Below, piece after piece: positions 6,581 through 50,246 of a stretch of 51,035 bases of DNA (positions are counted from its first letter, which is position 1; every line of letters begins with the position of its first letter). This DNA is from Clostridiales bacterium (GTDB lineage: Bacteria; Bacillota; Clostridia; Oscillospirales; Oscillospiraceae): assembly GCA_014799475.1 (NCBI GenBank), contig JAAVHX010000008.1:82677-133711 (forward strand), given 5' to 3'. The notes under the pieces are model-generated. The model was not told the origin of the DNA. It saw only the letters and a program-made list of their open reading frames with translations, and did no database searches. The position numbers were made by a program, and so were the translations under genes.

Positions 6581-6752
6581 AAGTCTACCTTTACAGATAC
6601 CCTATAACAAGCGCATTTTGCCGTCCAAAAAGTTTCGGTTTCCTATTTCTGGACATATCCATAAATTAAACAACTTTTACGGAAAATTAAACTGTGCAGA
6701 TGCCGCCCCACCTGTTACACTGGAAACAGATAACAGGAAAGGGGCGCTTTGC

Positions 6753-32088: not shown

Positions 32089-32093
32089 GTTTT

Positions 32094-32126
32094 ACTCTTC
32101 TTCCGTTGCCGTACAGGCAATGTCGT
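32094..32126 (-). pseudogene. Duplicate of the last ~30 bases of aspS
   Basis: The bases encode the aspS C-terminal peptide ACTATEEE plus stop and match 32247-32279 with about four differences. It lies beyond an inserted repeat (32124-32231), so the aspS end exists twice, on either side of the repeat. Confidence 0.75.
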
Positions 32127-32231
32127 CGGAACAAGCTCCATATCCTTCGCTTCCGCCTTCGGCGAAAGCTCACTCATTTCGCTGTTCCTCCTCTCCCCAT
32201 AAAGCCTGAGGGGCGGCTTTATGGGGGCCCC
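32124..32231. repeat. parS-linked repeat family, copy R1 (lacks parS)
   Basis: CGTCGGAACAAGCTCC, then CATATCC, CGCTTCCGCC, GGCGAAAGCTCACTC, CCTCCTCTCCCC, a hairpin CCCATAAAGCC/GGCTTTATGGG and the terminal GGGGGCCCC. It matches 45080-45253 closely but has no parS at its left edge. Confidence 0.75.
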
Positions 32232-32246
32232 ATGATGGGCGCTTGG

Positions 32247-34025
32247 TTATTCTTCTTCTGTCGCCGTGCAGGCAATGTTCAGTTCATCCAGCTGTTTCTG
32301 CTCCACGGTGCTGGGCGCGCCCATCATCAGATCCTGGGCCCGCTGGTTCATGGGGAAGGGGATGACCTCCCGGATGGACTCCTCGCCGGTGAGCAGCATA
32401 ATCATGCGGTCAACGCCGGGGGCGGCGCCCGCGTGGGGGGGCGCGCCGTAGGTGAACGCGTTATACATGGCGGGGAACTTGGCCTTCACGTCGTCCTCAC
32501 CCAGCCGCACCAGCTCGAAGGCTTTCACCATAATTTCAGGGTCGTGGTTGCGCACCGCGCCGGAGGCGGTCTCGTAGCCGTTGCACACCAGGTCGTACTG
32601 GAACGCGGTGATGGTCAGGGGATCCACCTCGCCCGCCGCCGCTTTCTTCAAAATATCCAGTCCGCCGTTGGGCATGGAGAAGGGGTTGTGGCAGAACTCC
32701 AGCTCGCCGCTCTCCTCGCCGATCTCGTACATGGGGAAGTCCACGATCCAGCAGAACTGATACTGTTCCTTGTCCATGTGGTTGGGGCAGAACGCGCCCA
32801 GCTTGGAGCGCAGCACGCCTGCGGTTTTCTGGGCCACGGCCAGCTTGCCCGCCGTCAGCCCCACGAAGCAGCCGGGTGTCAGGCCCAGGGCCTCCACCAC
32901 CTGCTCCTTGATGGGCTGGACGAACTTGGCGATGCCGCCCACGATCTCCCGGTTCTCGTCGTAGCGGAACCAGTAGGCTTTCTCCCCGGCCTGTACCTCC
33001 ACGTCGGCGCACAGCTTGTCGATCTGCTTGCGGGTACCCTCGAACCCGGTGACCACCACGGCCTTGACGGTGTTTCCCTCAAAGGGCCCGAAGCCGCACC
33101 CGGCCAGGGGGGCGGTGGCGTCCTGGATGAGGAGGTCGATGCGCAGGTCGGGCTTGTCGGTGCCGTAGAGCTCCATGGCATCGTTGAACTTGATGCGGCG
33201 GAAGGGGGCGGGGGTCACCCGGTCGTAGACGCCGAACTTCTCAAACACGGGCACCAGCACCCGCTCCAGCACGGACAGCACGTCGTCCTGGGTGGCGAAG
33301 GACATCTCCATGTCCAGCTGGTAGAACTCGCCGGGGGTGCGGTCGCCCCGGGCGTCCTCGTCCCGGAAGCAGGGGGCGATTTGGAAGTACTTGTCGAAGC
33401 CGGAGGCCATCAGGAGCTGCTTGAACTGCTGGGGGGCCTGGGGCAGGGCGTAGAACTTGCCGGGGTGCTTGCGGGAGGGGACGAGGTAGTCCCGGGCGCC
33501 CTCGGGGGAGGAGGCGGTGAGGATAGGGGTGGTGATTTCCAGGAAGCCCTCGCCGATCATGGCGGCGCGGAGGGCGGCCACCACGTTGGAGCGCAGGATG
33601 ATGTTGCTCTTGACCTCCGGGTTGCGCAGGTCGAGGTAGCGGTATTTCAGCCGGGTGGCTTCGTCGGCCTCCCGGGAGCGGTTGATGGGGAAGGGCAGCT
33701 CGTTGTGGCGGCAGCGGCCCAGCACCTCGATCTTGGAGGGCACGACCTCGATGTCGCCGGTGGGCAGCTTGGGGTTCTTGCTGTCCCGCTCCCGGACGAT
33801 GCCCTCCACCGAGATGGTGGACTCCTTGTTCAGCTCCTTGACGGCGGCCATCATGTCCTCGGTCTCAATGACCACCTGGGTGGTGCCATAGAAGTCCCGC
33901 AGGACCACGAAGGCCAGGTTCTGGCCCACCTCCCGGACGTTCTCCATCCAGCCGACCAGCTTGACCTGCTGGCCCACGTGTTCCATGCGCAGGTCATTGC
34001 AGGTGTGCGTGCGTGATTGAACCAT
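32247..34025 (-). CDS. aspS: Aspartyl-tRNA synthetase
   Basis: A 592-aa bacterial-type AspRS. The N-terminal OB-fold domain (VGQQVKLVGWMENVREVG ... FVVLRDFYGTTQVV) is followed by class II motif 2 (FRDEDARGDRTPGEFYQLDMEMSF), the GAD insertion domain and motif 3 (GAAPGVDRMIMLLTGEESIREVIPFP). Start chosen at the ATG at 34025, with GGAG 9 bases upstream. It charges tRNA-Asp. It lies downstream of hisS on the same strand, as in the classic hisS-aspS arrangement, but here a sigma/anti-sigma pair stands between them. Confidence 0.97.
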   Translation of the reverse strand: MVQSRTHTCNDLRMEHVGQQVKLVGWMENVREVGQNLAFVVLRDFYGTTQVVIETEDMMAAVKELNKESTISVEGIVRERDSKNPKLPTGDIEVVPSKIEVLGRCRHNELPFPINRSREADEATRLKYRYLDLRNPEVKSNIILRSNVVAALRAAMIGEGFLEITTPILTASSPEGARDYLVPSRKHPGKFYALPQAPQQFKQLLMASGFDKYFQIAPCFRDEDARGDRTPGEFYQLDMEMSFATQDDVLSVLERVLVPVFEKFGVYDRVTPAPFRRIKFNDAMELYGTDKPDLRIDLLIQDATAPLAGCGFGPFEGNTVKAVVVTGFEGTRKQIDKLCADVEVQAGEKAYWFRYDENREIVGGIAKFVQPIKEQVVEALGLTPGCFVGLTAGKLAVAQKTAGVLRSKLGAFCPNHMDKEQYQFCWIVDFPMYEIGEESGELEFCHNPFSMPNGGLDILKKAAAGEVDPLTITAFQYDLVCNGYETASGAVRNHDPEIMVKAFELVRLGEDDVKAKFPAMYNAFTYGAPPHAGAAPGVDRMIMLLTGEESIREVIPFPMNQRAQDLMMGAPSTVEQKQLDELNIACTATEEE

Positions 34026-43086: not shown

Positions 43087-43102
43087 TGTTTCACGTGAAA
43101 CT
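43087..43102. promoter_or_regulatory. parS site 1
   Basis: TGTTTCACGTGAAACT, 15 of 16 matches to the Bacillus parS consensus. It is followed by a short repeat-family segment (R5, CGTCGCCGCAAGCTCC) that runs to the end of the upstream coiled-coil gene. Confidence 0.9.
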
Positions 43103-43143
43103 CGTCGCCGCAAGCTCCGCATCGCTTACTCCGCCGCAGGGCT

Positions 43144-44118
43144 TCACTCTTTCTCGCACAGGCTCACGGTGCCGTCCTCGTTTTCGATGAGGTATCCCTG
43201 GGCGGTCAGGTCCGCCTTGATTTCCTCGAACCACTCCACGGTGGACGCTTGAAACACCCCGCTGTGGAGGATTTCCGTCTTGCCGCTGTTTGGCGCAAAG
43301 TCATGCGCAATGAGCCTCGCGGCGTACAGAGGGTCGACGGGGTAGTCCCGGACGATGGCATACAGGGAGGTGGCGGTATTCCGGACCTCTTCGCGGAACA
43401 CGCCGTCTTTGATCATGGGGGATTCGGTGTCCCCAGTCCCATCGGGCCCAGCCCGCCGCTCCATCACCATGAAGCCGCTTTTTTGAAACAGCTCCTCCCG
43501 CAGTTCCAGATACCGCGCCTCCTGGGCGGGGATCACATATTGGTCGGAGAAGCCGGGGCTCTGCCGGTTGAAGAGTATGTCGCTCATCTGGACGATTTCG
43601 CCCATCAGGAACCACTCACCGGTATCGCGGCACCGCTCCATGCAGTACAGGAGGTTGGACTGCCTGTACCAGGCGGTCATCCTGTAATAATCCGCCATGT
43701 ACCGCGCGGACTTCTCCTCCAGCTCCGCGCTGCGGGCCTGCTCTTCCTGCAGCTGTCCATCTAATGTTATCTTGTCCAGCGTGAGGGCCAGGTTCTCTTC
43801 CTCCAGCCGCTGGATGTCCTCCACCAACTCCTGCCGGGTGGCGGCGGTGGTGGAACGGAGATCGCTCAAGGCGGTGTCGTTGTTGCGCTGCTGGACGAAG
43901 TAGGCCAGCAGCAGCATGAGGAACGCCGCGCCGAACAGGATAAGCAGGTAGACGTAGAAGGAGGAGGGCTTGTTCCGCGGGGCTTTGTTTTCTGTTTCAC
44001 GTGAAACGCGTCGGGACAAGCTGCGCTCAACCGCTTCGCTGTCCCTCCTTTTCTCACCGAAACCGTCTGACGGCTGGGTTTCGGCGGGGGCCCCGGGATT
44101 GTCGTTTTTCCTGCTCAT
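43144..44118 (-). CDS. Membrane-anchored coiled-coil protein with repeat-derived N-terminus
   Basis: A 324-aa protein starting at the ATG at 44118, whose ATGA overlaps the parB stop. Residues ~8-42 are encoded by a parS-linked repeat; the parS site itself encodes V-S-R-E-T (38-42). A transmembrane helix (about 53-75) and a coiled coil (RQELVEDIQRLEEENLALTLDKITLDGQLQEEQARSAELEEK) follow, then a globular domain paralogous to that of the next gene. Function unknown. Its coupling to parB and the coiled-coil membrane architecture suggest a link between the origin region and the envelope, but that is inference. Confidence 0.75.
   Translation of the reverse strand: MSRKNDNPGAPAETQPSDGFGEKRRDSEAVERSLSRRVSRETENKAPRNKPSSFYVYLLILFGAAFLMLLLAYFVQQRNNDTALSDLRSTTAATRQELVEDIQRLEEENLALTLDKITLDGQLQEEQARSAELEEKSARYMADYYRMTAWYRQSNLLYCMERCRDTGEWFLMGEIVQMSDILFNRQSPGFSDQYVIPAQEARYLELREELFQKSGFMVMERRAGPDGTGDTESPMIKDGVFREEVRNTATSLYAIVRDYPVDPLYAARLIAHDFAPNSGKTEILHSGVFQASTVEWFEEIKADLTAQGYLIENEDGTVSLCEKE
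43993..44008. promoter_or_regulatory. parS site 2, inside a coding sequence
   Basis: TGTTTCACGTGAAACG, 15 of 16 matches to parS. It lies within the 5' part of the coiled-coil gene and is the left edge of repeat copy R6 (43993-44096). Confidence 0.9.
43993..44096. repeat. parS-linked repeat family, copy R6 (in frame in a CDS)
   Basis: parS, then CGTCGGGACAAGCTGC, CCGCTTCGC, CCCTCCTTTTCTCACC, a hairpin ACCGAAACC / GGGTTTCGG and the terminal GGGGGCCCC. It contains no stop codon in the reading frame of the host gene. Confidence 0.75.
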
Positions 44119-45026
44119 CCCTCACCGCCCCCTTCTGCGGCCTGGGGGGCCTTTTCCGCTGGGCGGAGTTTCTCCAGCAGGTCCAGCAGGTCGTTCAGGT
44201 CGTCCACGTTGTAGAACTCCAGCTCCAGCCGCCCCTTCCGCGCGCCGTTGTGGATGGACACCTTCCGGCCCAGACGCTGGGACAGCTCCTTTTCCACCGC
44301 CTGGATATAGATCTGGTGGGGATCGGGAGAATCCTTGGGCGGCAGGGCCTCGGGGGGCAGGAGGGTGAAGTTTTTGGCCCTGGCCTCCGCTTGGCGGACG
44401 CTCCAGCCCTCATCCACGATCTTCTGGGCAAAGGCGGCCTGGGCCTGCTCGCCCTCCACCATCAGCACCGCCCGGCCGTGGCCGGCGGTCAGCTTGCCGT
44501 CGATCATCAGCCCGCGCACGGCGGGGGGCAGGGCGGTGAGCCGCAGGGCGTTGGCGACGGCGGGGCGGGATTTGCCCATCCGCTTTGCCAGCTCCTCCTG
44601 GGTCAGCCCAAAGTCGGTGAGCAGGGAGAGGTAGCCCTCCGCCTCCTCGATGGGGTTCAACCCCTCCCGCTGGAGGTTTTCAATGAGGCCGATCTCCAGC
44701 ACCTTGCGGTCGTCCGCCTCGATGATGACCACCGGGACGTCCTTCCGGCCCGCCAGCTTGGCGGCCCGCCAGCGGCGCTCTCCGGCGATGATCTGGTAAT
44801 AGCCGGTGGACAGCCGCCGCACGGTCAGGGGCTGGATGATGCCGTGCTCTTCGATGGACGCGGCCAGGTCGGCCAGCGCCTCGTCATCGAACCGTTTTCT
44901 GGGCTGGTTCAGCCCGGGTTCCACCTGGGATATGGGCAGCAGGACGGAGCCCGCCTCCTGGCTCTGGAGGGTGGCATCCCCCATCAGGGCGTCCAGCCCC
45001 TTGCCCAAACCTTTGGCTTTGGCCAT
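44115..45026 (-). CDS. parB: Chromosome partitioning protein ParB (Spo0J)
   Basis: 303 aa from the ATG at 45026 (GAGGAG upstream). The N-terminus (KAKGLGKGLDALMGD) is ParA-interacting. The CTPase/ParB-N core has GLNQPRKRFDDEALADLAASI, ERRWRAAKLAG and ENLQREGLNPIEEA. The helix-turn-helix is LTQEELAKRMGKSRPAVANALRL. The C-terminal dimer domain ends VDDLNDLLDLLEKLRP. It binds the parS sites clustered here, spreads as a CTP-dependent clamp and loads condensin. Stop overlaps the start of the next gene. Confidence 0.97.
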   Translation of the reverse strand: MAKAKGLGKGLDALMGDATLQSQEAGSVLLPISQVEPGLNQPRKRFDDEALADLAASIEEHGIIQPLTVRRLSTGYYQIIAGERRWRAAKLAGRKDVPVVIIEADDRKVLEIGLIENLQREGLNPIEEAEGYLSLLTDFGLTQEELAKRMGKSRPAVANALRLTALPPAVRGLMIDGKLTAGHGRAVLMVEGEQAQAAFAQKIVDEGWSVRQAEARAKNFTLLPPEALPPKDSPDPHQIYIQAVEKELSQRLGRKVSIHNGARKGRLELEFYNVDDLNDLLDLLEKLRPAEKAPQAAEGGGEG

Positions 45027-45063
45027 TTGGGTGTCTCCTCTCTTTCTTTTGTAGCGTGGTTTT

Positions 45064-45079
45064 TGTTTCACGTGAAACT
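45064..45079. promoter_or_regulatory. parS site 3, upstream of parB
   Basis: TGTTTCACGTGAAACT, 15 of 16 matches, 38 bases upstream of the parB start; it could also allow autoregulation. Confidence 0.9.
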
Positions 45080-45253
45080 CGTCGAGGCAAGCTCCATATC
45101 CCTCGCTTCCGCCCTTGGCGAAAGCTCGCTCATTTCGCTGCCCTCCTCTCCCCACGCGACGCCCGCGGGGCCCGCCTTATAGGCGGGCTTAGCGCTGAAG
45201 CGCCGCCTTTGTGGCGCTTCGCGGCCTGACGTCTGGGCTCGCGCGGGGGCCCC
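45064..45253. repeat. parS-linked repeat family, copy R2
   Basis: parS, CGTCGAGGCAAGCTCC, CATATCCC, CGCTTCCGCCC, GGCGAAAGCTCGCTC, CCTCCTCTCCCCACGCG, several short hairpins (GGCCCGCC-TTATA-GGCGGGC; GCGCTGAAGCGC; GGCGCTTCGCGGCC) and the terminal GGGGGCCCC. It fills the whole parA-parB interval. Confidence 0.8.
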
Positions 45254-45267
45254 TTTAAGGGGAGTCC

Positions 45268-46035
45268 TTACTTCCTCACAAATGAATTTTTCTGCAAAAA
45301 TTCCTTGGCCAGTAAGTCGTACGCCTCCGCTCCCCGGGACAGGGGGTCGTAGACGGATACGGGCACGCCGTGGCTGGGGGCCTCGGACAGGCGCACGTTC
45401 CGGGGGATCACCGAGGCGTACACCTTGCCGGGGAAGTGGCGTTTGACCTCCTCCGCCACCTGGAGGGACAGGTTCGTCCGCCCGTCGTACATGGTAAGCA
45501 GTACACCCTCCAGCTCCAGGTTGGGGTTCAGCCGCTGTTTGGCCAGCCGGACGGTGTACAGCAGGTCGCTCAAACCTTCCAGGGCGTAGTACTCGCACTG
45601 GACGGGGACCAGCAGGGTATCCGCCGCGCACAGGCCGTCCAGGGTCAGCAGCTCCAGGGAGGGGGGGCAGTCGATGAAAATGAAATCATAGCTGTCCTTG
45701 ACCTCCTCCAGCGCGTCCCGCAGGCGGAACTCCCGGCGGTCCAGGCCGATCAGCTCCACGGTGGCGCCGGAAAGGGCCTTGTTGGCGGGGGCCACGTCCG
45801 CCCATTTGGTGGGCACGATGGCGCGGCTCATGGGCGCCATGTCCAAGATCACGTTGTACACGCTGGGGGAGCGGGTCTTGTCCAGGCCAAGGCCGGAGGT
45901 GGCGTTGCCCTGGGGGTCGAAATCGCACACCAGCACCTTGGCCCCTTGGGCGGTGAGCGCGGCGGCCAAATTGACACAGGACGTGGTCTTGCCCACGCCG
46001 CCCTTTTGGTTGACGATGGCGATGGATTTGCCCAT
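45268..46035 (-). CDS. parA: Chromosome partitioning ATPase ParA (Soj)
   Basis: 255 aa from the ATG at 46035 (AAAGGGGCG upstream). The deviant Walker A is QKGGVGKTTSCVNLAAAL, followed by the switch DFDPQGNATSGLG and Walker B YDFIFIDCPPSLELLTLDGL. The C-terminus carries SVIPRNVRLSEAPSHG, with the Arg residues typical of Soj. It works with ParB to separate origins and tunes DnaA in Bacillus. Separated from parB by repeat R2. Confidence 0.97.
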   Translation of the reverse strand: MGKSIAIVNQKGGVGKTTSCVNLAAALTAQGAKVLVCDFDPQGNATSGLGLDKTRSPSVYNVILDMAPMSRAIVPTKWADVAPANKALSGATVELIGLDRREFRLRDALEEVKDSYDFIFIDCPPSLELLTLDGLCAADTLLVPVQCEYYALEGLSDLLYTVRLAKQRLNPNLELEGVLLTMYDGRTNLSLQVAEEVKRHFPGKVYASVIPRNVRLSEAPSHGVPVSVYDPLSRGAEAYDLLAKEFLQKNSFVRK

Positions 46036-46174
46036 GGGGAAAGCGCCCCTTTCTCTCTCGTGAATGGGTGCCGCCGGAAGCGCGGGACGCGGTTCGCGGC
46101 GGTAAAATTCATTATATCCTGTTCCGGGCATGATTTCAACTGTTTCCCAAAAATATCGCCCCAAAGAAAGAGAC

Positions 46175-46204
46175 AAAAAAGGCAGGCCAAAGGGCCTGCC
46201 TTTT
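46175..46204. terminator. Bidirectional terminator between noc and parA
   Basis: AAAAGGCAGGCC-AAAG-GGCCTGCCTTTT, a perfect 12-bp stem bordered by A and T runs on both strands, upstream of parA. Confidence 0.85.
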
Positions 46205-46218
46205 GGGAGCAATTTTCC

Positions 46219-46360
46219 GGGGCCCCCGCGCGAGCCCAGCCGCTAAGGCGGCGGGTCGCGTGGGGAGAGGAGGTGCAGCGGAATGAGTGAGCCCAGCCGC
46301 TGACGGTTTGCGGCAGGGCGGGGGATATGGAGCTTGCACCGACGTGTTTCACGTGAAACA
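46219..46360. repeat. parS-linked repeat family, copy R3 (inverted)
   Basis: Runs GGGGCCCCCG, then CGCGAGCCCAGCCG-CTAA-GGCGGCGGGTCGCG, GGGGAGAGGAGG, ..GATATGGAGCTTGC, and ends in a perfect parS at 46345-46360. Opposite orientation to R2 and R6. Confidence 0.8.
46345..46360. promoter_or_regulatory. parS site 4 (perfect)
   Basis: TGTTTCACGTGAAACA, 16 of 16, at the edge of repeat R3. Confidence 0.93.
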
Positions 46361-46414
46361 TCCTGCCCCGCCGATTCAGGCGCGGTTCGTGGACGGCAGG
46401 AATTTTCAGTAACT

Positions 46415-46635
46415 GCATATGGGCGGCAGCACAAATAGGGAGAAATCCATGCGAAAGCACCACGCGCCGGAAGGGTCACCGCTTTTTCACAAACGGCGAG
46501 TCCTTCGTTCCCCAGGGGGTTCTCAGGGGGAAGCCCCGCCTGTGAGCGAGGGAGCGCCCCTGGCTCCCGAAGTCGAACCGGCGGGATGCCCCCTGAGTGT
46601 GTCTTTGCCTACTTTCTGCACAAGCAGAAAGTAGG
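46415..46635. repeat. Composite interspersed repeat, copy B
   Basis: Same order of blocks as 25455-25786: head GGCGGCAGCACAAATAGGG, middle GCGCCGGAAGGG ... CCTTCGTTC ... GGGGGTTCTCAGGGGG, then CGAACCGG, and an AT-rich hairpin tail at 46608-46635. The nested palindrome of copy A is absent or replaced. No gene in 46361-46697. Confidence 0.65.
46608..46635. repeat. AT-rich hairpin family member 4
   Basis: CCTACTTTCTGC-ACAA-GCAGAAAGTAGG, a perfect 12-bp stem downstream of noc. Confidence 0.8.
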
Positions 46636-46697
46636 GCGTTGGCCCCGGCGGGGACCGTCCAGTGCCGGCCGAGCCAACGGCGAGACCGCCGAAGGTC

Positions 46698-47489
46698 TTA
46701 TTTTGGAATATGGATGGTCAGCGTGATCTCGCTGTCCGTCTCCTCCCGGCCGCACCGGGCGTCCACCCCGGCGGACTGCATCACCGCCAAGCTTTTCTTC
46801 ACCGTATTGAGGAACAACCGCACGTCCCGGAAGCGGTAGACCGGCGCGGCCCTGCGGGGGGCCGCCTCCCGGCGGCACAGGCGGTCGATGTACGCCTCGG
46901 TCTGGGCCACGTTGAGATGATTTTTTAAAATGTGCTCCAGGGCCGAGCGCTGGAGGGACTCGCTGTCCAGCCGCAGCAGGGCCCGGGCGTGGCGCTCGGT
47001 GAGGTGGTTGGAGCGCAGGCCGTCGATCACGTCCTCGGGCAGCTTCAGCAGCCGCAGCTTGTTGGCCACGGCGGACTGGCTCTTGCCCACCCGCCGGGCG
47101 GCCTCCTCCTGGGAGAGGTGGTGCCGGTCGATGAGCTGGCGCAGGGCGGCGGCCTCCTCCCAGACGGTGAGGTCCTGCCGCTGGAGGTTTTCCACCAGGG
47201 CCAGCAGGGCGGAGGCGTCGTCGTCCGCCTCCGTGGGAAGGCAGGGCACCCGGGGCAGGCCCGCCAGCTCCGCCGCCCGCAGCCTGCGCTCTCCGGCGAT
47301 CAGCTCCCAGCCCTCCGGCGTGCGGCGGACGGAGAGGGGCTGGAGCACCCCCACCTGGGAGATGGACAGGGCCAGCTCTTCCAGCTCGTCCGGGCTGAAC
47401 TCCCGCCGGGGCTGGCGTGGATTGGGACGGATGCTGCCGATGGGCAGCTCCAGCACCTGCCGCCGGTCTGTTTTGGAAAAGAGGGACAT
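46698..47489 (-). CDS. noc: Nucleoid occlusion protein Noc (ParB family)
   Basis: 263 aa from the ATG at 47489 (AGGGAGG upstream). ParB-type CTPase core (IRPNPRQPRREFSPDELEELALSI, GERRLRAAELAG, ENLQRQDLTVWEEA) and helix-turn-helix (LSQEEAARRVGKSQSAVANKLRLLKLPEDV). The C-terminus (FRDVRLFLNTVKKSLAVMQSAGV ... ITLTIHIPK) aligns with the end of Bacillus Noc rather than Spo0J. The N-terminus (MSLFSKTDRRQ) is shorter than the membrane-targeting helix of Bacillus Noc. It should block division over the nucleoid. The Noc-binding consensus was not found here. Confidence 0.88.
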   Translation of the reverse strand: MSLFSKTDRRQVLELPIGSIRPNPRQPRREFSPDELEELALSISQVGVLQPLSVRRTPEGWELIAGERRLRAAELAGLPRVPCLPTEADDDASALLALVENLQRQDLTVWEEAAALRQLIDRHHLSQEEAARRVGKSQSAVANKLRLLKLPEDVIDGLRSNHLTERHARALLRLDSESLQRSALEHILKNHLNVAQTEAYIDRLCRREAAPRRAAPVYRFRDVRLFLNTVKKSLAVMQSAGVDARCGREETDSEITLTIHIPK

Positions 47490-47555
47490 AAAAACGCCTC
47501 CCTGCTGTGATATGGACAAGCATACCACAAGGCGGGAGGCGAATTCCATCGAAGA

Positions 47556-47689
47556 GGGGCCCCCGCGCGAGCCCAGCCGCTAAGGCGGCGGGTCGCGTGG
47601 GGAAAGGAGGAGCGGCGGAATGAACGAGCTTTCGCCAAGGGCGGAAGCGAGAGATATGAAGCTTGCGACGACGCGTTTCACGTGAAACA
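47556..47689. repeat. parS-linked repeat family, copy R4 (inverted)
   Basis: GGGGCCCCCG, CGCGAGCCCAGCCG-CTAA-GGCGGCGGGTCGCG, GGGGAAAGGAGGAGCGGCGG, GAGCTTTCGCC, GGGCGGAAGCGAGAGATATG, AAGCTTGC, ending at parS 47674-47689. Its first 45 bases are nearly identical to R3. Confidence 0.8.
47674..47689. promoter_or_regulatory. parS site 5
   Basis: CGTTTCACGTGAAACA, 15 of 16 matches, upstream of noc, at the edge of repeat R4. Confidence 0.88.
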
Positions 47690-50230: not shown

Positions 50231-50246
50231 TGTTTCACGTGAAACA
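50231..50246. promoter_or_regulatory. parS site 6 (perfect)
   Basis: TGTTTCACGTGAAACA, 16 of 16. The only parS of the window not attached to a repeat copy. A hairpin (GGGCTCCC..GGGAGTCC) follows. Confidence 0.93.

Follow-up and report, generated by a model that had tools for sequence, protein, structure and literature searches.

Why do five of six neighbouring parS sites end, at a fixed distance, in copies of one and the same repeat? This question is raised by a stretch of 51,035 nucleotides (the window) from a Clostridiales bacterium of the Oscillospiraceae (GenBank assembly GCA_014799475.1, contig JAAVHX010000008.1, forward-strand positions 82,677 to 133,711), which contains parA, parB and a second parB-like gene resembling noc. 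The repeat is a small hairpin-rich sequence whose two ends are CGTCG and GGGGCCCC. We lean, with modest conviction, towards the reading that it is a family-wide non-autonomous mobile element, for whose CGTCG end the edges of the parS sites around parAB and noc are recurrent landing points. In that case small bacterial repeats of unclear spread would be tied to one exact address, the parS centromere, providing a handle on how such repeats choose their sites and on how parS is gained, moved and lost around parAB. In the following, G000 denotes the genome of the window (a fragmented, metagenome-derived assembly of 2.08 Mb in 46 contigs, completeness 86.6%), other G numbers denote relatives, and L numbers denote loci.

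The junction between parS and the repeat

The 14-bp core GTTTCACGTGAAAC, which adjoins parA and parB and matches the parS of chromosomal ParB, by which it is predicted to be bound, occurs six times in exact form in the window (16-mers at 43087, 43993, 45064, 46345, 47674 and 50231). A further match with three mismatches lies at 6713, and the whole assembly holds ten parS sites. The sequence-only reading of this DNA had proposed that five of the six are fused to the repeat at a fixed junction and that the repeats lie in both orientations, which is borne out by the counts: GTTTCACGTGAAAC-N-CGTCG-NNN-CAAGCT occurs five times in the window and never in 100 shuffles, with the motif starting at 43103, 44009 and 45080 on the plus strand and at 46331 and 47660 on the minus strand. 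The five cores, to which no strand is assigned, occupy 43088 to 43101, 43994 to 44007, 45065 to 45078 (between parA and parB), 46346 to 46359 and 47675 to 47688, and each is separated from its repeat by a single junction base, at 43102, 44008, 45079, 46345 and 47674, respectively. The sixth core (50232 to 50245) lies 5′ of tadA and has no repeat in G000. The shorter pattern CGTCG-NNN-CAAGCT is found six times in the window, at the five parS sites and at 32124, against 0.06 in shuffles, and 13 times in the assembly, where the reversed pattern gives none.

The exact junction was found at nine loci of the species-level collection and in one of 250 genomes of the family, namely G000. When the pattern was relaxed to permit a junction of one or two bases and variation in the centre of parS, it recurred in 8 of 400 genomes, representing 7 of 106 genera, and the reversed control gave no match. 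In the fusion of G058 the parS core reads GTTTCATGTGAAAC, and the type of inner stem matches, by eye, that of the other copies in the same genome. None of the 13 listed places with the relaxed junction is more than about 6 kb away from parA or parB, no fusion away from the parAB region was found in the collections searched, and copies without parS are scattered across many contigs of G000; the parS-bearing copies found thus cluster near parA and parB, which supports the sequence-only reading in this respect. The sequence-only reading was to be given up if the flanks of parS in related genomes had no sequence in common; they do share the repeat, so that this refutation fails.

The precision of the junction was measured as the gap between parS and CGTCG-ended repeats found by nhmmer at 25 parAB-region loci (27 listed, two duplicates dropped), of which six had been chosen for having the junction, L028 came from the exact-junction search and the rest, apart from the window, were chosen for parS. 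Among 30 repeats, the gap was 1 nt in 18 and 2 nt in five (23/30); the remaining seven comprised gaps of 106, 108, 510, 561, 935 and 1594 nt and one repeat without any parS on that side. A comparison of parS classes used 128 distinct sites in the fetched loci, 85 of the parAB region and 43 dispersed, the latter meaning only that the locus had not been fetched as a parAB region (the two sites of L267 are probably parAB-side). A repeat end at 1 to 2 nt accompanies 34 of the 85 parAB-region sites, never on both sides (32 if two doubtful cases are left out; L109:3832 and L311:6093 look false, and at least three were missed, among them L109:6139, L109:11182 and L311:1281). None of the 43 dispersed sites has a repeat (Fisher p about 1e-7, with sister genomes that are not independent).

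The dispersed sites show a feature of their own, a one-sided extension GTTTCACGTGAAAC-NNNN-GTT(C/T), which is present in 37 of 43 and in none of the 85 parAB-side sites (L007 to L010 and others). The extension makes half of parS overlap a GAAC-NNNN-GTTT-like palindrome, which we take to be SOS-box-like. In G079 and G429 (L318 and L321), parS flanks both sides of the repeat or of a short remnant, as if an insertion had duplicated parS. Moreover, G260 and G275 hold 31 and 47 parS cores, far above the other relatives searched.

Structure, spread and probable mobility of the repeat

The repeat is a structured element of about 110 to 200 bp with two hairpin domains, nested stems, a core of 78 positions and strong stem covariation. 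Alignments of 13 copies and of 28 copies from several genera, the latter collected by the CGTC motif, gave a 5′ part CGTCG-NNN-CAAGCT-NCATATC, followed by an inner stem of variable sequence, and a 3′ part TCATT-NC-GCTG-NNN-CTCCTCTCCCC, followed by a terminal hairpin closed by GGGG and finishing in GCCCC. In many copies the NNN triplets are base-paired to each other; their three positions are unpaired in 12, 10 and 5 of the 28 copies, respectively. Across these 28 sequences, 89.9% of cells are paired, compared to 72.6% after shuffling, the covariation score is 0.471 versus 0.169 shuffled and at most 0.132 slid, and all eight pairs of the inner stem show changes on both sides. Neither the pairs with double changes (47 of 500 shuffles reach the observed number) nor further pair types (238 of 500) clearly exceed the shuffles. 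When six copies were folded singly, each came out 2.5 to 7.1 standard deviations lower than its own shuffled versions. CGTC is invariant in all 28 copies, which were collected by that motif; it is unpaired in the plus-strand fold of L019 and paired in L056, a copy beside a transfer RNA (tRNA) gene.

The repeat is widely distributed and occurs dispersed in the genomes of many gut bacteria. A strict pattern picks it out in 46 of 250 genomes of the bacterial family and in 30 of 106 genera, with no match of the reversed control. With the 78-nt core model, G000 yields 15 matches if the limit is E ≤ 0.001 and 23 if it is E ≤ 1; ten related genomes yield 11 to 50 matches each at the stricter limit. 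The nhmmer search with the A2 profile overlooks a CAAAGTC subtype, as judged by eye. No Rfam family matches the repeat at the gathering score in the window or at E 0.1 in ten loci.

The shared layout that had been proposed for the window holds for four copies: those at 45080 to 45253 (plus strand, bearing additional hairpins and reaching its terminal GGGGGCCCC close to the parA stop), 46219 to 46344 (minus, noc-parA region) and 47556 to 47673 (minus, yitT-noc region) are full, and the predicted copy without parS at 32124 to 32231 (plus) is indeed a full repeat at the 3′ end of aspS, with CGTCG at 32124 and GGGGGCCCC at 32223 to 32231. It does not hold for the other two. The copy at 43103 to 43141 (plus) is a fragment of 39 nt by nhmmer, consisting of the CGTCG end only and lacking GGGGGCCCC, to which the core model gives a weak 57-nt match; that at 44009 to 44094 (plus) is a short form from which CATATC and the inner hairpin are both absent. 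The short form and its parS lie in frame within the open reading frame (ORF) at 43144 to 44118 and would be read as a piece of the N-terminal part of the predicted protein, the junction base falling on a four-fold degenerate codon position. The genes around these copies, all on the minus strand, are parB (44115 to 45026; ParB_N, HTH_ParB and ParB_C domains), parA (45268 to 46035; AAA_31 and other ParA-type ATPase models) and the gene for the Noc-like second ParB-like protein (46698 to 47489; 289.9 bits with the NCBIfam Noc model, below the cut-off of 315).

One end of the repeat, CGTCG, is fixed and follows one or two junction bases. Among 109 copies away from parS and tRNA genes, 87 have T at position −1; at position −3, C is found in 70 and A in only three. 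Of 131 copies, 15 have a tRNA, as called by ARAGORN, in the 110 nt that precede CGTCG (in one case on the opposite strand), and in 12 of these 15 no base separates the reported tRNA end from CGTCG. The repeat starts directly after the tRNA end (CCA) in L037, L041, L049, L056, L062, L178, L180, L183, L187, L204, L218 and L220, and a terminator-like hairpin followed by T-runs is seen at the tRNA side in L056 and L041. Other copies lie inside the RNase P RNA gene (L050 by Rfam; L052, L203 and L215 by matching flank, by eye), and the end of a phosphoglycerate kinase-like gene, recognised by eye, bears the repeat in three genera at two positions (L019, L046 and L193).

Evidence of movement comes from the flanks. 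The CGTCG-side flank was compared to the GGGGCCCC-side flank in 110 copies, with mismatched pairs as the null. Direct duplications above 99% of the null were found in 12 copies, about one being expected, and inverted matches above the same threshold were found in six, which indicates that the test has a background from hairpin-rich flanks. Nine solid duplications remain after L033 and L189, which look nested, and L202, which looks like a simple repeat, are dropped; they are 21 to 103 bp long, L179 having 103 bp with two mismatches. In seven of the nine, the duplicate stops exactly one base before CGTCG and its counterpart is found about 2 to 60 nt beyond GGGGCCCC, in most cases where a gene ends. 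In the window, a displaced old 3′ end of aspS (32092 to 32123, minus strand), which ends at the CGTCG junction, is a 32-bp direct duplicate of the functional 3′ end (32247 to 32278, minus strand), and the codons that differ between them are synonymous. The same aspS insertion, at one junction, is common to G000 and G291; the repeats of G275, G293 and G260 sit at a different junction in this gene, G276 has a remnant only, and the aspS ends of G285 and G272 are free of the repeat. These positions were read in eight of 30 fetched loci (two with and six without the repeat) and in four further ones. With positions at aspS that change among close relatives, the repeat looks mobile.

Some details of these duplications concern how they were made. 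Displaced and working gene ends differ in codons of which 20 of 21 are synonymous (L011, L013, L021, L046, L061, L193 and L196; seven of the nine solid duplications are covered, L179 and L053 being outside), so that neutral target duplication is hard to keep as their sole source. Our guess is that exchange between diverged alleles explains the synonymous bias. In five of the nine (L013, L046, L053, L061 and L193), the spacer between GGGGCCCC and the gene end contains an inverted copy of the target near the junction, scoring 9 to 18 units, compared to at most 9 for spacers against foreign targets, except for L046 on the same gene; no such copy was found in the spacers of L179, L196, L011 and L021. 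In the wider set, inverted spacer copies exceed 99% of the null in four of 55 copies, about 0.5 being expected. These inverted copies hint at a fold-back or strand-switching step. A peptide read in frame within the repeat was also considered and set aside, since by eye two displaced ends continue into a possible small ORF and two do not. Furthermore, the last 25 or so codons of aspS and parA, both of which adjoin repeats, diverge two- to threefold more than the remaining codons between G000 and its sisters; the last bin of parA is inflated because parA ends differ in length. The excess is not seen in parB and tadA and mostly not in noc and yitT.

Candidate mobilising enzymes were sought as members of the Y1 and RVT_1 families in 18 genomes, some of them incompletely assembled: ten rich in the repeat and eight without strict copies, the repeat-poor status resting on the strict pattern. 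A Y1 transposase of the RAYT (REP-associated tyrosine transposase) kind was rejected as a partner, with none in G000, matches in two of the ten repeat-rich genomes and in five of the eight others. Reverse transcriptases matched in eight of the ten and four of the eight, with none in G272 and G058; because they occur in repeat-poor genomes and are missing from some repeat-rich ones, they are no consistent partner. A nuclease, a primase or a recombinase, for example of the IS110/Piv type that acts on CGTC repeats in Neisseria, would be a further candidate.

How the fusions may arise

The order of events at individual gene junctions can be approached by comparing close relatives. In the aspS tree, G000, G291, G285 and G272 form one clade (support 100/99, inner order open), and G276 and G293 lie outside. 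All six have parS in the noc-parA slot. G000 and G285 carry the repeat on the right side of this parS, G291, G272 and G293 carry it on the left side, and G276 has none; the repeat is thus indifferent to the side of parS. The common flank starts 27 to 32 nt past parS in G291 and G272 and 6 nt past the repeat in G000, which places the repeat between parS and the common flank. In the yitT-noc slot, parS is present in five genomes; G000 and G272 also carry the repeat, G285 retains a remnant of it, and it is missing from G291 and G276. In the tadA slot, all four clade members have parS, the repeat is absent from G000 and G285, and the copies in G272 and G291 belong to two different subtypes. Because relatives hold parS without the repeat or with the repeat on the opposite side, the repeat was probably added to a standing parS in these three slots. 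The slot at 43994 to 44094 has parS and similar repeat copies also in G291, G272, G285 and G276.

The parA-parB slot is different. In G000, spacer, repeat, junction base and parS form one block from the parA stop to the parB leader; in G291, parS is kept and the repeat is eroded to GGGGCCCCCGCGA; and in G285, G272, G293 and G276 the block is wholly absent, with neither parS nor repeat. In G066, G202, G253 and G257, by contrast, a parS without the repeat is present there. Here parS and repeat were probably gained jointly, which is the shorter story. The proposal of the sequence-only reading that the repeat multiplies parS is therefore retained in part: joint gain is probable at parA-parB, but at noc-parA and yitT-noc parS stands without the repeat or with the repeat opposite.

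Joint gain is the strength of an alternative in which parS is the cargo, a parS-repeat block being copied locally among parAB gene junctions and lone parS sites being blocks minus their repeat. The parA-parB block is entire in G000 and missing as a whole in G285 and G272, G291 demonstrates that the repeat can go and parS stay, and parS varies widely in number and position among relatives. However, a freely copying parS-bearing unit should give fusions outside the parAB region, and none was found among the 13 listed places, which argues that cargo is not the general rule. Repeats at different parS sites also differ in sequence, NNN and subtype, the noc-parA repeat lies on opposite sides of parS in different species, and many relatives have a parA-upstream parS without the repeat. 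We regard this alternative as possible but doubtful. Selection would offer another explanation, if a hairpin near parS aided ParB loading or blocked read-through and chance neighbours were kept. It would agree with the recurrence of the association in seven genera and with the tRNA-side copy L056, which folds as a terminator-like hairpin. It does not alone yield gaps of 1 to 2 nt with none at 3 to 105, however, the side of parS is not conserved, and 51 of the 85 parAB-side sites were scored without the repeat; this explanation seems improbable, and we infer that the landing preference stems from the way in which the element inserts at parS rather than from selection for a hairpin there.

An immobile, vertically inherited family of functional RNAs or attenuators would fit the strong covariation and the location of copies after genes and tRNAs. 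It is hard to reconcile with the different occupancy and junction at aspS in close relatives, the duplicated flanks and the lack of an Rfam match, and is very improbable. Chance likeness of GC-rich intergenic DNA or an assembly artefact would have to be considered for a fragmented metagenome assembly; with no junction in the shuffles, no match of the reversed controls in 400 genomes and the same slots in other assemblies, this can practically be dismissed.

Several observations weigh against the landing-point reading itself. The gap count includes six of 25 loci that were selected through the junction, and sister genomes are not independent. The 14-bp core alone cannot be the target, because dispersed parS sites with the identical core have the repeat in 0 of 43. 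In addition, parS has A at −3, unlike the usual repeat junction, so that parS would be hit for another reason than the usual junction. The duplication test has the background noted above, and G285 and G272 may once have had the repeat at aspS and lost it. Across the 18 genomes, neither the Y1 transposases nor the reverse transcriptases are distributed like the repeat. At parA-parB, the nearest relatives without the repeat lack parS too, and G291 lost the repeat yet kept parS, from which it follows that single absences do not by themselves show the order of events.

If the edges of parS are indeed landing points, an element of two hairpin domains would insert by its one fixed end, CGTCG with one or two junction bases, which would be attached to a 3′ end of DNA that is left accessible where a folded site, or one covered by a protein such as ParB, has its border. 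Fusions would then arise repeatedly on either side of parS and later be lost, and parS and repeat may sometimes arrive together. A bolder version, which we consider rather unlikely, holds that the machinery or DNA ends of the element single out ParB-loaded parS, ignore identical cores elsewhere and can also add new parS; if true, bacterial centromeres would be both the target and the product of a mobile DNA.

Relation to known repeats

The sequence-only reading knew of no description of a repeat-borne parS, and we likewise found no report of parS with repeats or miniature inverted-repeat transposable elements (MITEs) in searches of an open-licence library, which does not cover subscription journals and preprints. 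MITEs are small, non-autonomous, structured and intergenic, as is the repeat described here. They have terminal inverted repeats and a short target duplication of fixed length, whereas the ends CGTCG and GGGGCCCC are, by eye, not inverted copies of each other and the duplications vary from 21 to 103 bp. Rickettsia palindromic elements are read in frame inside protein genes, which resembles the copy in the ORF at 43144 to 44118; their sequence and host are not known to be related to those of our repeat.

Among repetitive extragenic palindromic (REP) sequences, the GTAG REPs mobilised by RAYT share with our repeat a small, palindromic, non-autonomous and intergenic nature, as described by Di Nocera et al. 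(2013, PMC3733652). The repeat here bears no GTAG tag, and eight of ten repeat-rich genomes gave no match to a Y1 transposase. The CGTC-tagged REPs are, according to the same paper, single hairpins of 20 to 40 bp, mostly alphaproteobacterial, with a stem of 8 to 9 bp starting with AT, a loop of 4 to 5 nt and no known dedicated transposase (PMC3733652). Both have a CGTC end, a hairpin body and many extragenic copies, some copies being intragenic. Compared to these REPs as described there, the Oscillospiraceae repeat is no single hairpin, with about 110 to 200 bp, two domains, nested stems and a core of 78 positions, and it is distinguished by long flank duplications and by its junction to parS.

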